Of a DNA stretch of 46,340 bases, positions 2,976-43,153 are shown piece after piece. The position numbers were made by a program, and so were the translations under genes. Under the pieces are notes generated by a model. The model was given only the letters and a program-made list of their open reading frames with translations, did no database searches and was not told where the DNA came from. This DNA is from Deltaproteobacteria bacterium HGW-Deltaproteobacteria-13 (GTDB lineage: Bacteria > Desulfobacterota > Syntrophia > Syntrophales > Smithellaceae). The stretch is from the NCBI GenBank assembly GCA_002840555.1, contig PHBJ01000005.1, positions 238,045 to 284,384 of the forward strand, written 5' to 3'. Each line of letters opens with the position of its first letter. Position 1 is the first letter of the stretch.

Positions 2976-4355
2976 ATGGTCAAACTCATTCAAAAATTTG
3001 TTTCCTGCTGCCGCGCTTCAGGCCTGCGTGTATCAACCTCGGAAGTTCTCGACAGTCTCAATCAGTTAAAGCTGATTGACCCGACCGATGAACCGGAATT
3101 CCAGTCTCTGCTTCGCGCTAATTTTGCCAAAAGCATGAGAGATGTACAGCATTTTGACCGGCTTTATCATCTCTTCTTTCATGAAATGCGCATGGACATA
3201 GGTGATATGAAGCAGGCCGCCTTTCACTCCGATCAAATAAAAAAATCGGCGGAAATTCTCAAACAGATGCCCCATGATAACCCTATTTACGATGCCGTTG
3301 TGGACTTCCTGCAGGGAAATCCTCTCGCGCTCCTTCAGGAAATGCGCCGCATCAGAACTGAAGCCGAAGTAACACAGCTGAGATTTAATCTGGGACCTTT
3401 GGGCAACCGCCTCAATGTGATGCTGCAGATTAATAGAGCCGCTTCCGCCGCCAGCGCTCTGGTGGAAGAAAATTATGCAAAAACGGATTCAGCCGCGGGA
3501 CGTGATCTTGCCGCCTATTTTGAAGAACGCGTTGCTTCTGCCCGTTCCATTCTCATGAATGAACCGCGTCCGGGAGACTCCGGCACTAAAAAACCTAAAA
3601 CGGAAGAACAGCGGCTTAAAGGACTGGGCGAGAAATCTTTTTCTTCTTTTAACCGCGAAGAAATTGAAGAAATGCGTGAAGCGATTGACAAGCTGGTTCG
3701 CAAGTTAAAAAATATCGTCAGCCGGCGTTTTTCCGTTCAAAACAGGGGCGGTATCGATGTTAAAAAGACTCTGCGGGCATCGGCAAAATACAACGGCGTT
3801 CCCGTGGAAATCAAATATCGCCGGAAATCGAAACGCAAAAGCCGGATTGTCACGCTCTGCGATGTGTCCGGTTCCGTCTGGGCGGCGGCGCGTTTTATGC
3901 TGAATTTGCTTTACTCCCTTCAGGATTGTTTTGACAAAGTGAACAGTTTTGTCTTTATTGACCAGTTGTCGGAAGTCACTTCCATCTTCGAGGAACATGA
4001 AATCAACGAAGCAATTCGAATGGTATTGGAAAAATCAGACGTGAATTATAACGCGTCAACGGATTATGGCGAAACGCTGCGGAATTTTAAAAAAGACCAT
4101 ATGGAACTTCTAACCAAGAAAACAACGCTGATCATCGTCGGCGACGGCCGCACCAATTATATGAATCCCGAAGACGCGATTCTGGGTCAAATGCGGGAAC
4201 GCTGCCGGCGGGTGATCTGGCTCAATCCGGAGCAGGAAAATCTCTGGGGCACCGGCGACAGTGAAATCAAATCATATATGCAGCATTGTCACGAAGTGCG
4301 TCAATGCCGGAACATCAACCAATTATTTGCTTTTATCGAGGAGCTGGTTTTATAA
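2976..4355 (+). CDS. VWA-domain protein, CoxE-like partner of the MoxR ATPase
   Basis: A 459-residue protein. The N-terminal half is helical and rich in Arg/Glu. The C-terminal third is a VWA domain beginning RIVTLCDVSGSV, with the metal-ion-dependent adhesion site DVSGS at residues 296-300 and a later Asp-rich strand (IIVGDGRTNY). This is the CoxE/DUF58-like VWA architecture that accompanies MoxR/CoxD ATPases. The VWA domain binds Mg2+ and is thought to present the client to the ATPase ring. It follows the ATPase by 60 bases and is followed after one base by the acyl-CoA dehydrogenase gene, so the three form an operon. Confidence 0.88.
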   Translation: MVKLIQKFVSCCRASGLRVSTSEVLDSLNQLKLIDPTDEPEFQSLLRANFAKSMRDVQHFDRLYHLFFHEMRMDIGDMKQAAFHSDQIKKSAEILKQMPHDNPIYDAVVDFLQGNPLALLQEMRRIRTEAEVTQLRFNLGPLGNRLNVMLQINRAASAASALVEENYAKTDSAAGRDLAAYFEERVASARSILMNEPRPGDSGTKKPKTEEQRLKGLGEKSFSSFNREEIEEMREAIDKLVRKLKNIVSRRFSVQNRGGIDVKKTLRASAKYNGVPVEIKYRRKSKRKSRIVTLCDVSGSVWAAARFMLNLLYSLQDCFDKVNSFVFIDQLSEVTSIFEEHEINEAIRMVLEKSDVNYNASTDYGETLRNFKKDHMELLTKKTTLIIVGDGRTNYMNPEDAILGQMRERCRRVIWLNPEQENLWGTGDSEIKSYMQHCHEVRQCRNINQLFAFIEELVL

Positions 4356-5625: not shown

Positions 5626-6108
5626 ATGGAAGAAAGGATTATAGCAAAACGACAAAAGAAGAGCGAGCAAGACAAGGCTGAACTGTCGAAGAAAAAAGAA
5701 AGAAAAGTTGATCGGCTCAATGAAGAGAACGAGATCACCATTACGATCATCTCCGGAATAAAAGATATTCCTCAGGAACAGATTCTCTATAACTACAGCA
5801 AAGATATTTCCATGGCCGGCACGAAAATTCAGGGCAATGTTCTTTTGCCCAACGATACCTTTCTCAAAATAGATTTAACTTTAAAAAATGCAAAACAAAA
5901 GATAACCGTTTTCGGAAAAGTAATCTGGAATAAAGTCATCAATGAAGGCGAATATTACGAGGCAGGCGTGGAGTTTGTGGATACACCCAGCGACTCCATC
6001 AAGAAGCTTGAGAATTATATTTTATCGGTTCAGGATTATGCAAACCTTAATCCGGTCGGTGTACCGTATTGGATTTTTGCAAAATTTAACAAGCCCGCGC
6101 CTAAATAG
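5626..6108 (+). CDS. PilZ-domain protein
   Basis: I chose ATG 5626 (160 residues) because AAGGAGG lies at 5608-5614; an in-frame ATG at 5575 lacks a comparable site. Residues 1-35 are a highly charged, probably coiled segment of Lys and Glu. A PilZ beta-barrel follows, with the DxSxxG motif as DISMAG (residues 60-65), then strands VFGKVIW and EAGVEFVD. PilZ domains bind cyclic di-GMP through an RxxxR motif followed by DxSxxG. The Arg pair is not evident here (LYNYSK occupies that place), so binding may be weak or absent. It could control surface or motility functions, but no target is visible nearby. Confidence 0.8.
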   Translation: MEERIIAKRQKKSEQDKAELSKKKERKVDRLNEENEITITIISGIKDIPQEQILYNYSKDISMAGTKIQGNVLLPNDTFLKIDLTLKNAKQKITVFGKVIWNKVINEGEYYEAGVEFVDTPSDSIKKLENYILSVQDYANLNPVGVPYWIFAKFNKPAPK

Positions 6109-6154
6109 CTGCAAAGTTTTTTGCACATCAATTCAGAAAACATAAAAACAAGGA

Positions 6155-6237
6155 AACGTTCCGGGAAAACTTCCGGAAAAAGATTGCAGGATAAGCAGAC
6201 AAAAGCCGGATATAAATTTCTGCATAAAGCAAGATAG
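6155..6237 (+). pseudogene. Decayed fragment of the acyl-CoA dehydrogenase 3' end
   Basis: This 83-base stretch aligns with the last 84 bases of the acyl-CoA dehydrogenase gene (5398-5481), including the TAG stop, with about 60 identical positions and one single-base deletion. In translation, LQDKQAKLG and LLHGAR of the gene correspond to LQDKQTKAG and FLHKAR here. The deletion puts the two halves in different frames and there is no start, so it cannot be a gene. It looks like a remnant of a duplication that ended up on the far side of the PilZ gene. The rest of 6109-6386 holds nothing I recognise. Confidence 0.7.
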
Positions 6238-18810: not shown

Positions 18811-18880
18811 GTCATGCCGGACTTGATCCGGCATCCAGAAAAAAACAATACTGGATTGCCCAATCCAGTTGGGCAATGAC
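18811..18880. repeat. Palindromic repeat doublet, copy 1
   Basis: Two inverted arms. The left arm 18811-18838 (GTCAT...CATCCAG) contains ATGCCGGA/TCCGGCAT around the loop CTTGA. The right arm 18851-18880 (CTGGATT...AATGAC) contains ATTGCCCAA/TTGGGCAAT around TCCAG. A 12-base A-rich spacer separates them. It lies between the convergent ends of feoB and a lipoprotein gene, so the stems may also stop transcription from both sides. Same design as 40264-40343 and 42765-43153. Confidence 0.85.
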
Positions 18881-40263: not shown

Positions 40264-40343
40264 GTCATTGCCCAACTTGATTGGGCAATCCAGTATTTCT
40301 TTCCTGGATTCCCTTGTCTCATTATCATTCGCAAGGGAATGAC
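40264..40343. repeat. Palindromic repeat doublet, copy 2
   Basis: The left arm 40264-40293 (GTCATTGCCC...CAATCCAG) contains ATTGCCCAA and TTGGGCAAT with loop CTTGA in the centre. The right arm 40304-40343 (CTGGATTCCC...GGAATGAC) has ATTCCCTTG (40308-40316) paired with CAAGGGAAT (40332-40340) over a long loop. The arms are inverted and separated by 10 bases. A third, degenerate arm lies at 40415-40439 with TCCCGTA/TACGGGA around the same CTTGA loop. Confidence 0.85.
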
Positions 40344-40386: not shown

Positions 40387-40466
40387 CTTTACTTTTAGGG
40401 CTGTTCAAAATCTTGTCCCGTACTTGATACGGGATGCTCAGATGCAATGCCCTAATTAACCATATA

Positions 40467-40593
40467 CATGACTATTCAAACGTGCCTAGATGCAAGGCGT
40501 GCGAGGATTTAGGAACGAGGCCTACTTTTAGCGTAGGCCGCAGTGACTAAACCGGAACACAACGCCGCAGATGGGCGCGTTTCAATAGTCATG
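40467..40593. mobile_element. 127-bp MITE-like element with terminal inverted repeats
   Basis: The ends match as inverted repeats: CATGACTATTCAAACG (40467-40482) and CGTTTCAATAGTCATG (40578-40593), 15 of 16 pairs. Inside is a perfect hairpin GGCCTAC/GTAGGCC (40519-40539). It has no gene. It ends immediately before the stop codon of the helicase (CTA at 40594-40596 on the plus strand). It looks like a small non-autonomous element, or an RNA-structured repeat. Only one copy is in the window. Confidence 0.55.
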
Positions 40594-42684
40594 CTAGAGG
40601 AAGAGGACTGGTTCCCTCAGTATCGCCTCCCTCGCCCTATACGCACACGCTGCGATTTCAGGATACGTATCTTTGAGCGACGTGATCTGGCGCAGATTAT
40701 CCCCCGTGCGTAAAATCAGCGACGCCATGTCGCCTTCGGCGATTCCCGTGGCCTTGATGACGGAATCCCAACTGTGCCCCTGCGCCCAGTAATACATGGC
40801 GGCGCCCGCGGAGGCATGAAGTTTGACTGTCGCAAAACCCGCCGTCTCCATTCGATGGATAAGCGGTCGCGCGGCAAGCACAACTTTTTTGAAAGAGAGC
40901 AGAAGTTTCGGCGGCAAATCTTTTACGGTCATTTTCATATCGTCATCACGATCGTAGGCAAAAAACGCGACAGCAGCGGCAAGAATTTTTTCGTTATCCT
41001 CAGGAAAAGCATTTTCGCGCAGACACTGCGCTACCAAAAGTGGATAATCCAGACGCAGTTTTGAAGCCCAGCGACCGTCATCGGTGAGCGATCCGGTTTC
41101 ATCCACAAATCCTTCTTTTTGCAGAAATTTCAAATGGCGCGAAAAATCCGTCCAAAGCGATTTTGCCGCAGACATTGTCGCCCCGTGATGCCGGATATTT
41201 TGCTGATAAGCCGCCAGCGACCTCTCGAATATTTTGCGAATGTCCTCCGGCGTCTGCGATAAAAGCAAATTCAAAACCATCGCAAAATCGTTTTTCAACC
41301 GGCTGAAAATATCTTCCGGTTTCTGAAACAGCAGATGCCGGATATGGTTTAAATCCATAAATTTCCCGCTGACGGCCAGCATAAAGCCGATGTTGTCCTG
41401 TCCCCGGCGGCCCGCGCGGCCGGTCATCTGGCTGAATTCCGTGGCCGAGAGCGGATTAAAATCATTTCCATTGAATAAATCCGAGTTAAAAAGCACGATG
41501 GTTCTCGCGGGGAAATTCACCCCTGCGGCAATGGTGGATGTGGCAAAGATCACGCGCAAATGTCCCCTGTTCATCATTTCTTCCACCAGCATCTTCCAGG
41601 CCGGCAGCTGCCCGCCGTGATGAGAAGCAATTCCCGACGATCGCAACGCTTTTAATTGCCGGTGACCGCTCAGTGACGGGAAACGGTCCAGCAGATCATA
41701 CAGAGAGTCATCAAATTCTCTGGAGTTGCGCAACGGCGGAAGCGCACCGCGCGCCGTCAGCGCCGCATCGCACTCCGCGCGCGATTTTAAAAAAAAGATG
41801 GCCGGCAGAAGGTTGAACCTTTCTAAAATTCTGATAATGCCGACATAATCCGGCATGTTTCTGCCGCGCAATCTTTTTTCGTCAGCTTTCTTTAAAATAT
41901 TAGCAACCGGCAGTGAAACTTTTTTCCCGTCCAGAAAGGGGTGCAGACAACCGGAAGGATGCAGGAAAATCGGATACAAAGGAACGGGACGTTTTTCTTC
42001 CCTGATGACCACGCACGATTTTTTGCGGATGGATTCCAGCCACTGCGCGATTTCCTCGCCGTTGCCGATTGTCGCTGATAAAAGCAGCAGGTTAACCCGC
42101 GCAGGAAGATAAATCATTATTTCTTCCCAAACAACGCCGCGATCTGCATCGCCTAAGAAATGCGCTTCATCCAGAATGACCAGATCGCAATTTAAATCTT
42201 TCCCGTGATGCATGGCGTCATAGAGCTGATTGCGTAGTATTTCGGTGGTGCCGACAATAATCGGCGCTTCCGTATTTTCCTTGGTATCGCCGGTGATGAT
42301 GCCCACATTTTCAGGATCGAAATGCAGGCCGAACTCCACCCACTTGGAATTGGAAAGGGCTTTCAGCGGCGAGGCGTACCAGGCACGTCCGCCCTTTTCC
42401 ATCACGGATAAAATCGCTTCCCGCGCGATCCAGGTTTTGCCGGAACCCGTCGGCGCGATAACCAGACAATCCGTCTTGTTAATCGCTTCCAGCGCTTTAA
42501 CCTGAAAATCATCGGGAACAAAAGGGGTGGGATGCGGTTTACCTATTTTAGCCAGAACTTTTTTCAACGCCGGCGCGATTTCCGGTTTGAAAAAAGATAC
42601 GTTCTCTTTTCTTTTAGATTTCCTGCCGGGGAAAGAACGCTTGAACTGGAAGGGCTTCTTTCTTTTTTCAATTTTTTCTTGCAT
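40594..42684 (-). CDS. Ski2-like DEAD/DEAH-box helicase
   Basis: A 696-residue superfamily 2 helicase. The N-terminus is a basic tail (about 1-30). Walker A APTGSGKT (77-84), the DEAH box (172-175), SAT (LLSATIG) and motif VI QMTGRAGRRG are clear. A helical C-terminal domain follows. It resembles the Ski2/Mtr4/Hel308 group, which in bacteria acts on RNA or on DNA during repair. Substrate uncertain. No partner gene sits beside it. Its stop codon directly abuts the repeat element at 40593. Confidence 0.92.
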   Translation of the reverse strand: MQEKIEKRKKPFQFKRSFPGRKSKRKENVSFFKPEIAPALKKVLAKIGKPHPTPFVPDDFQVKALEAINKTDCLVIAPTGSGKTWIAREAILSVMEKGGRAWYASPLKALSNSKWVEFGLHFDPENVGIITGDTKENTEAPIIVGTTEILRNQLYDAMHHGKDLNCDLVILDEAHFLGDADRGVVWEEIMIYLPARVNLLLLSATIGNGEEIAQWLESIRKKSCVVIREEKRPVPLYPIFLHPSGCLHPFLDGKKVSLPVANILKKADEKRLRGRNMPDYVGIIRILERFNLLPAIFFLKSRAECDAALTARGALPPLRNSREFDDSLYDLLDRFPSLSGHRQLKALRSSGIASHHGGQLPAWKMLVEEMMNRGHLRVIFATSTIAAGVNFPARTIVLFNSDLFNGNDFNPLSATEFSQMTGRAGRRGQDNIGFMLAVSGKFMDLNHIRHLLFQKPEDIFSRLKNDFAMVLNLLLSQTPEDIRKIFERSLAAYQQNIRHHGATMSAAKSLWTDFSRHLKFLQKEGFVDETGSLTDDGRWASKLRLDYPLLVAQCLRENAFPEDNEKILAAAVAFFAYDRDDDMKMTVKDLPPKLLLSFKKVVLAARPLIHRMETAGFATVKLHASAGAAMYYWAQGHSWDSVIKATGIAEGDMASLILRTGDNLRQITSLKDTYPEIAACAYRAREAILREPVLFL

Positions 42685-42764: not shown

Positions 42765-42794
42765 GTCATTGTCCAACTTGATTGGACAATCCAG
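42765..42794. repeat. Palindromic repeat arm, left of the GIY-YIG gene
   Basis: GTCATTGTCC...CAATCCAG, with ATTGTCCAA/TTGGACAAT around loop CTTGA. It pairs, in inverted orientation, with the arm at 43124-43153 to frame the GIY-YIG gene. A half arm with GGACAATCCAG lies at 42743-42753. Confidence 0.85.
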
Positions 42795-42809
42795 TTAACA
42801 AATTATCTT

Positions 42810-43112
42810 TTATCGTAGTGCAGAACAAGTATTCTCCGCAAGGTCACGCCACCCAGGATTCACTTTCTCTATAAGTTCTACCTTCCATTTTCTAGTCCAC
42901 CTCTTCAACTGTTTCTCTCTTTGCAAAGCCGCATTAACATCATTTACAGATTCATAATAGACAAGATTATGGACTCTATATCTTTTAGTAAAACCGTCTA
43001 TGAGATTGTTTTTATGTTCGTAAAGGCGTCTTTCCAAATCATTCGTGACGCCTATATATAAGGTGCCATTTCGTTTACTTGCCAACATATAAACATAATA
43101 TGTTTTATTCAT
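42810..43112 (-). CDS. Small GIY-YIG nuclease domain protein
   Basis: A 100-residue single-domain GIY-YIG protein. The signature is YVYMLASKRNGTLYIGVTND (YVY at 6-8, YIG at 19-21), followed by LERRLYEHK and a Glu in LQREKQLKRW. This is the stand-alone YhbQ/UPF0213-like family, often mislabelled as excinuclease subunit C. It would cut DNA; its role is unknown. No ribosome binding site is seen before ATG 43112; a repeat hairpin ends 11 bases upstream of it. Both sides are framed by arms of the palindromic repeat found elsewhere in the window. Confidence 0.93.
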   Translation of the reverse strand: MNKTYYVYMLASKRNGTLYIGVTNDLERRLYEHKNNLIDGFTKRYRVHNLVYYESVNDVNAALQREKQLKRWTRKWKVELIEKVNPGWRDLAENTCSALR

Positions 43113-43123
43113 TGGAAGAATTT

Positions 43124-43153
43124 CTGGATTGCCCGGTCAAGCCGGGCAATGAC
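43124..43153. repeat. Palindromic repeat arm, right of the GIY-YIG gene
   Basis: CTGGATTGCCC...GGGCAATGAC, with ATTGCCCGG/CCGGGCAAT around TCAAG. It is the inverted partner of the arm at 42765-42794. It lies between the tyrS stop and the GIY-YIG start and would form a hairpin in the GIY-YIG mRNA leader. Confidence 0.85.

Follow-up and report, generated by a model that had tools for sequence, protein, structure and literature searches.

A GIY-YIG nuclease gene framed by CGTC-tagged REPs and its probable role as the cognate enzyme of the repeats

The window analysed here, a stretch of 46,340 nucleotides from Deltaproteobacteria bacterium HGW-Deltaproteobacteria-13 (Smithellaceae; contig PHBJ01000005.1), carries between a tyrosyl-tRNA synthetase gene and a DEAD-box helicase gene a GIY-YIG nuclease gene of 100 codons (42810..43112, minus strand, ATG start) that lies between two palindromic repeat arms, one on its 3' side (42765..42794, plus strand; 9-bp stem, 5-nt loop, tag TGTC, tail CCAG) and one on its 5' side (43124..43153, minus strand; 9-bp stem, 5-nt loop). 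Gene-free doublets of the same kind of arm stand at 18811..18838 (plus strand; 8-bp stem, 5-nt loop) with 18851..18880 (minus strand; 9-bp stem, 5-nt loop) and, past the helicase gene, at 40264..40293 (plus strand) with 40304..40343 (minus strand; 15-nt loop). A scanner for GTC followed by a perfect stem, a loop and CCAG found exactly these three inverted pairs with zero tag mismatches, in one orientation and with spacers of 12, 10 and 329 bases, the gene leaving 15 bases to one arm and 11 to the other; the geometry described in the first-pass annotation was thus reproduced to the base. Two further scanner matches (2316-2345 and 3055-3083) have one tag mismatch each and unrelated stems. A 42-bp block over the arm at 40304-40343 has an identical copy beside the GIY-YIG element of locus L007/L090.

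All window arms run from TGTC through a stem starting AT, a loop and the stem complement to CCAG. Five of the six fit the published definition of CGTC-tagged REPs, namely a CGTC or TGTC tag, an 8-9 bp stem beginning AT, a loop of 4-5 nucleotides, a CCA tail and a predominance of inverted dimers, and the sixth (40304-40343) departs from it in its 15-nt loop; judged by sequence, the window arms are the CGTC-tagged REPs of Di Nocera et al. 2013, which in the excerpted text of that paper include Neisseria dRS3 and Rickettsia RPE-4 and RPE-6 (PMC3733652). The repeats are multicopy (74 pattern matches in the window genome, 0 for a control pattern), and across 51 genomes of the window's family GGAAT-stem doublets are tag-outward, as are the arms around the GIY-YIG gene, at 64 places and tag-inward at 8 (summed). 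Chimeric GTC...GAC palindromes, as an inter-arm deletion would leave, occur at 15 places in 10 of the 51 genomes, and palindromes of this sort are mentioned for REPINs in excerpts of Bertels and Rainey 2011 (PMC3116915). Predicted single-stranded DNA folds of arms and doublets beat all 200 shuffles (z-scores of -3.65 and -4.78 for the gene-flanking arms, -5.46 and -5.89 for the two doublets); since the outer TGTC/GACA and the inner CCAG/CTGG are paired in the predicted doublet fold, that fold is a four-armed junction.

Two further observations concern repeats of other kinds. The loops of some CGTC arms hold an inserted second palindrome, for example ...GAACCGGCGAATGCCGGT... or AAGCCTGCCCCTGC...GGGG (left arm of L146, right arm and an upstream REP of L171, upstream arms of L085, both arms of L027), an arrangement suggesting that repeats insert into one another's loops. 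A separate repeat of about 100-200 bp, with ends like GGGCTGTTGAAAAACG and TTTTTGAACAGCCC, recurs beside synthetase and helicase genes (L144, L145, L149, L150, L184 and the window at about 40395-40600).

That the 329-base spacer holds a complete GIY-YIG gene is confirmed by a match to PF01541 of 68 bits (cut-off 22.6, E 9.3e-19). Among 116 aligned proteins, Y8, Y19 and R29 are conserved in 116 and E66 and N85 in 115, and we take these residues to be the catalytic Tyr, Tyr, Arg, Glu and Asn of GIY-YIG nucleases. Judging from dN/dS values of 0.04-0.20 in 17 pairs with dS between 0.05 and 1.6, the gene is under strong purifying selection. The structure model has a mean pLDDT of 91.5, and its best PDB fold matches are UPF0213 proteins and Slx1. 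A paralogue in the same genome (L003) is distant (37-38% identity to the window protein) and has zero arms within 250 bp. A phage origin was ruled out, as 2 of 50,697 phage records match (E <= 1e-8), both of one Rhizobium phage, at 40% identity over 75% of the query. Zero PF01797 matches at E <= 0.001 were found in the window genome, which is rated 100% complete; a Y1 transposase is absent from it by this search, and a RAYT was ruled out as current mobiliser there. As a separate observation, a DUF559 nuclease-like domain (PF04480, E 6e-44) that reads in frame into a radical-SAM-like gene (named from sequence) has CCCTCTCCCTTGAGGGGAGAGGG-type repeats on both sides in L204 (G000:C19:71500-79500, at about 2070-2480) and in L178 (at about 5700-6230), and may form with them a second small nuclease/palindromic repeat pair.

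A genome-collection scan gave at least 579 relatives of the protein, and the record titles of the best 80 name Deltaproteobacteria, Patescibacteria, Chloroflexi, Cyanobacteria, Bacteroidetes, Nitrospirales, Omnitrophota, Planctomycetota, Alphaproteobacteria and others. A non-redundant set of 135 genes was formed from 143 loci by removing the distant paralogue L003, the duplicates L084, L086, L088 and L090 and the contig-end loci L013, L021 and L099, and an arm was counted if a correctly oriented GTC-hairpin lay within 60-70 bp of the gene. Strict arms on both sides were found for 57 of the 135 genes against 1 of 264 control ORFs from the same loci (Fisher p = 4e-30), which answers in the affirmative the question put by the first-pass annotation, whether stand-alone GIY-YIG genes are flanked beyond chance; strict or relaxed arms on both sides were found for 82 of 135 against 1 of 264, ruling out chance flanking, and any arm for 110 of 135 against 14 of 264. 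The contrast recurs in the subsets. Among the 78 testable genes of the best 80 relatives, 33 have both strict arms and 57 at least one (control ORFs, both arms, 1 of 213), and in the window's family both strict arms flank 17 of 28 genes (controls, 0 of 22). At 27 further phylum-sample loci, which represent 27 of 31 gene places (three were already in the set and one had no locus) and include two from the same-genus genome G011, strict arms on both sides were seen at 8, relaxed on both at 13 and any at 22 (controls, n = 20: both 0, any 1).

The arms sit close to the gene: over the 53 rows that have strict arms on either side (3 of them duplicates), the median gap measured from CCA is 12 bp upstream, to the start codon, and 5 bp downstream, from the stop codon. 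The letter before GTC agrees between a gene's two arms in 43 of 58 cases and the letter after CCA in 44 of 58 (1 of 5000 shuffles each), whereas agreement is weaker further out (at best, one more position before GTC, 304 of 5000 shuffles); arm-to-arm agreement therefore stops at the arm edges, and the unit has sharp ends. Wrongly oriented arms, too, are somewhat enriched near the gene, a point against the reading preferred below: of 78 genes, 6 have one upstream and 9 have one downstream (43 and 47 in the right orientation), compared with 1 and 5 of 213 controls, and in a second set the counts are 8 and 13 of 112 against 3 and 10 of 246. This lies far below the right orientation and is expected where repeats cluster. 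Shuffled flanks gave 16 single matches in 1120, all downstream, probably because some arms overlap the end of the gene, which was left unshuffled.

Not all genes follow the pattern, and the exceptions count against a strict pairing. The scanner assigned no arm to 25 of the 135 genes, which is the kind of armless relative that the first-pass annotation had named as contrary evidence, although in at least six of these (L023, L032, L036, L070, L072, L073) inspection by eye reveals decayed GTC arms on one side or on both. The gene of Neisseria (L173) and those of Sinorhizobium/Rhizobium (L175, L176) have CGTC REPs around or next to them without being enclosed in a doublet, which likewise weighs against the reading preferred below. 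The Neisseria gonorrhoeae locus (NZ_CP119140.1, 1880260-1884541), where the GIY-YIG relative stands amid a CGTC-1 (dRS3-type) cluster, comes from a record filed as a plasmid yet 2.17 Mb long. A further GIY-YIG group without strict CGTC arms nearby was noted at L186-L188 (G014:C3:550624, G010:C55:99408, G010:C27:60138), its members being 82-87% identical to one another and 51-53% identical to the window protein.

Many genes without strict arms are accompanied, by eye, by other GTC-hairpin repeats, of the types GTCATTGCGAGC...GCAATCTC, GTCATTCTGAG...GAATCTC, GTCATGCCGAAC...GGCATCTC and GTCACTTCGACC...GAAGTCTT. Tails were labelled by rule as CCA or CTC, any strict arm giving CCA, and placed on a protein tree of 142 rows (138 different), in which 26 rows without an arm label were left uncounted. 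Over the 101 CCA and 15 CTC genes the tail type changes twice on the tree, whereas 200 shuffles required at least 12 changes and 14.35 on average. All 15 CTC genes fall in one clade of 22 rows, together with 1 of the 101 CCA genes (L064) and six unlabelled rows; SH-aLRT support for this clade is 90, without bootstrap, and many forks of the tree are open because the alignment has only 97 columns. Three genomes (G058, G094, G129) carry both protein clades on different contigs, each clade with its own repeat type, so host relatedness does not explain the co-segregation of tail and clade. By inspection, finer arm types inside the CCA group also seem to track clades.

These comparisons strongly support a nuclease/repeat pairing that, as far as sequence can tell, is specific and old. 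The explanation that we prefer, and regard as probable, is that GTC-tagged REPs (the CGTC type and its CTC-tailed sister type) have as their cognate enzyme a small GIY-YIG nuclease selective for DNA structure, with the gene-free doublets as its non-autonomous satellites. The first-pass annotation had proposed that such a nuclease moves or maintains the repeat family. Its dedication to the family is upheld by the flanking across phyla, the co-segregation of tail and clade, the shared orientation and the density correlation described below, whereas recognition, cleavage and mobilisation of the repeats by the protein are steps that we infer; in the same way, the satellite status of the doublets accords with their having the orientation of the arms around genes, and their spreading by the nuclease is conjectural.

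Sister sites bear on how the units come and go. The gene stands beside the same tyrosyl-tRNA synthetase gene in G011, G012, G008 and G009, the G012 copy carrying a stop. Of the eight gene-free synthetase-helicase junctions in same-genus genomes, seven (G022, G014, G010, G016, G015, G018, G017) have no arm by eye, and the eighth, G019, retains two half-arms fused together. Past the helicase gene, related genomes do include empty sites, which the first-pass annotation had suggested looking for in sister strains: G015 and G018 have neither gene unit nor doublet there, G016 carries an arm-gene-arm unit of 390 bp, and the window genome carries a doublet of 82 bp. The window doublet shares with the G016 unit (L184) the helicase-distal arm (in the window, 40264..40293) and its outer flank, 75 bp at 90.7% identity, and differs in the second arm; the three states carry no order in time, the intergenic DNA has diverged and the G018 alignment is rough. 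Genes of the same clade as that of the G016 unit lie past the helicase also in G034, G006 and G029, and at that place in G012 lies a gene of the other type, truncated at the contig end and accompanied by a GTCATTGCGAG arm. At a second locus the element of one clade lies on one side of a gene in G014, G024 and G001 (degenerate) and on the opposite side in G010, where G001 keeps a remnant and G000 has none. These comparisons indicate that units are gained, lost or shifted locally, yet are often old. Strain-level empty sites were not found in the plasmid collection, where the best-covered records carry the gene and the others among the matches listed cover parts of the query only.

The same sites weigh on a different account, in which the gene is a homing-type parasite: as a free-standing homing endonuclease it would cleave REP doublets and be copied into the spacer between the arms, with the repeats serving as its target and owing their spread to something else. 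GIY-YIG is a classic homing-endonuclease domain, the protein has weak matches to homing endonuclease profiles (one below cut-off), and the window doublet, with a different second arm, occupies the site where G016 has its gene unit. However, homing calls for an intact target in gene-free alleles, and gene-free sister sites are mostly empty or diverged, with no doublet in G015 and G018 past the helicase and no arm at the seven junctions listed above, and the matching letters of paired arms end at the arm edges. We consider homing unlikely, if the most serious of the competing accounts, and keep to a cognate enzyme of the repeats, with the caution that copies often stand at conserved places across genera, so that the gene itself moves little, which counts against that reading.

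Repeat density was compared in a sample of 98 phylum genomes at least 90% complete. The CGTC pattern has a median of 12.5 per Mb in 22 gene carriers and 2.7 in 76 gene-free genomes (p = 2.5e-5; p = 0.00011 without the window's own family), and densities of at least 20 per Mb occur, outside that family, in 8 of 20 carriers and 1 of 75 non-carriers. Mean density is higher in carriers in eight of the nine families with both states, the exception being f13, and this within-family comparison is the only control for phylogeny. All 9 family genomes that carry a gene of 75% identity or more have GTCATTGYCC-type repeats, as do 12 of the 42 others, a weak test in which the gene's own arms are counted. 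The first-pass annotation had held that repeats abundant in genomes that never had such a gene would speak against it, and here the result is divided: carriers are denser, but pattern matches occur in all 51 family genomes, including 14 that are gene-free at E <= 1e-12 (several of them incomplete), and G131 (27.9 per Mb) and G069 are repeat-rich without the gene. The family-wide matches and G131 count against the preferred explanation, and since repeats persist in gene-free genomes the link is a strong correlation, not strict dependence. Carriers poor in the CGTC pattern are G098, whose gene (L227) has CTC-type arms, and G127 (L222), with zero arms scored and a GTCATTGCGAGC repeat downstream in opposite orientation.

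It could instead be supposed that the protein is a housekeeping nuclease that removes or resolves REP cruciforms for the host, the flanking REPs regulating its own gene and nothing being spread. Low copy number, conserved positions and strong purifying selection would suit such a role, as would the resemblance to Slx1, a branched-DNA nuclease per PDB titles, and the GTC...GAC palindromes noted above. We hold it to be improbable because the gene is patchy (37 of 51 family and 22 of 98 phylum genomes, with at most five copies, some with internal stops), because carriers are richer in repeats, not poorer, and because the role needs no tight two-sided flanking. A RAYT or other Y1/HuH transposase as mover of the repeats, with the GIY-YIG gene a passenger trapped between two of them, is very improbable: RAYTs have been proposed as movers of GTAG REPs in excerpts of the REPIN literature (PMC8266576, PMC3116915), but the window genome has no PF01797 match, two-sided flanking is next to absent in control ORFs, a passenger is not expected to co-segregate with the repeat tail, and Di Nocera et al., in the excerpted text, report no CGTC-flanked tyrosine transposase gene (PMC3733652).

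If the nuclease is indeed the cognate enzyme of the repeats, its action may be pictured as follows. The unit that holds the gene between two REPs measures about 390 bp and runs TGTCAT...ATGACA. A doublet or gene unit, single-stranded or extruded, would fold into a four-armed junction made of paired TGTC/GACA, hairpin 1, paired CCAG/CTGG and hairpin 2; the Slx1-like nuclease would recognise the folded GTC arms or the junction of the doublet and cut there, and host repair might copy or rejoin the broken element elsewhere, the enzyme acting in trans on doublets and rarely moving its own gene. The GIY-YIG domain alone is not known to join strands, which counts against the scheme. We advance only tentatively, as a possibility that we rate somewhat short of even, the broader view that these units are autonomous mobile DNA of a class not described before: within some 390 bp, a single GIY-YIG gene of about 100 codons, enclosed by two GTC-tagged hairpins, would drive in trans the spread of the CGTC and CTC-tailed repeats that occur across phyla, by cutting four-armed junctions and without a transposase.

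Among known proteins, stand-alone GIY-YIG proteins of the UPF0213 type (1zg2, 1ywl) are alike in size and fold, with 23 and 28% identity to the window protein in structural matches. Slx1 is a larger protein that acts together with Slx4 and, per PDB titles, processes 5' flaps and branched DNA; its likeness to the window protein is one of fold only (E 2.6e-3).

The closest known system is the REPtron of RAYT (TnpA-REP) and REPINs, to which the first-pass annotation had pointed for its similar logic. As set out in excerpts of PMC8266576 and PMC3116915, the systems share a single small enzyme gene of low copy and conserved position close to inverted REPs with tags, satellite doublets, a correspondence between enzyme group and repeat type, and a presence that correlates with repeat number; RAYTs are usually single-copy and without evidence of mobility in the excerpted text of PMC8266576, a state that the local, often old GIY-YIG units resemble. 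The enzymes and tags differ, RAYT being an HuH Y1 transposase with GTAG-tagged repeats and the present protein a GIY-YIG nuclease with TGTC/CGTC-tagged ones. A further difference is that the GIY-YIG enzyme is not known to perform strand transfer. Our best reading is that the GIY-YIG/REP pairing works like a REPtron and is unrelated to RAYT. If so, REPIN-like systems, each a population of hairpin satellites maintained by a resident enzyme, evolved on more than one occasion from unrelated enzymes, and a function would be found for proteins that now either lack an annotation or are entered as 'GIY-YIG nuclease family protein', 'excinuclease ABC subunit C' or 'hypothetical protein'. Among the papers listed from open-access PubMed Central, none links GIY-YIG to REPs in its title or abstract, and the first-pass annotation likewise knew of no established description.

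The repeats themselves, in tag, stem, loop, CCA tail and inverted dimers, are like the CGTC REPs of Di Nocera et al. 2013, who in the excerpted text describe them as unassociated with transposase genes, never find them flanking a tyrosine transposase gene, report only a few associations, held to be fortuitous, with genes of other transposases, and state that they 'apparently lack a dedicated transposase' (PMC3733652); the term 'GIY' is absent from the main text of that paper. Since 2013 the CGTC REPs have stood as a large REP superfamily for which the excerpted text reports no dedicated enzyme (PMC3733652). The present analysis finds them on either side of a GIY-YIG gene in many phyla and extends the set by relatives with a CTC tail. 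If the nuclease is the missing enzyme, the question becomes testable with a 100-residue protein and short oligonucleotides. The pairing across phyla, with a matched repeat type for each enzyme branch, points to the GIY-YIG nuclease as the long-missing partner enzyme of the CGTC REPs.
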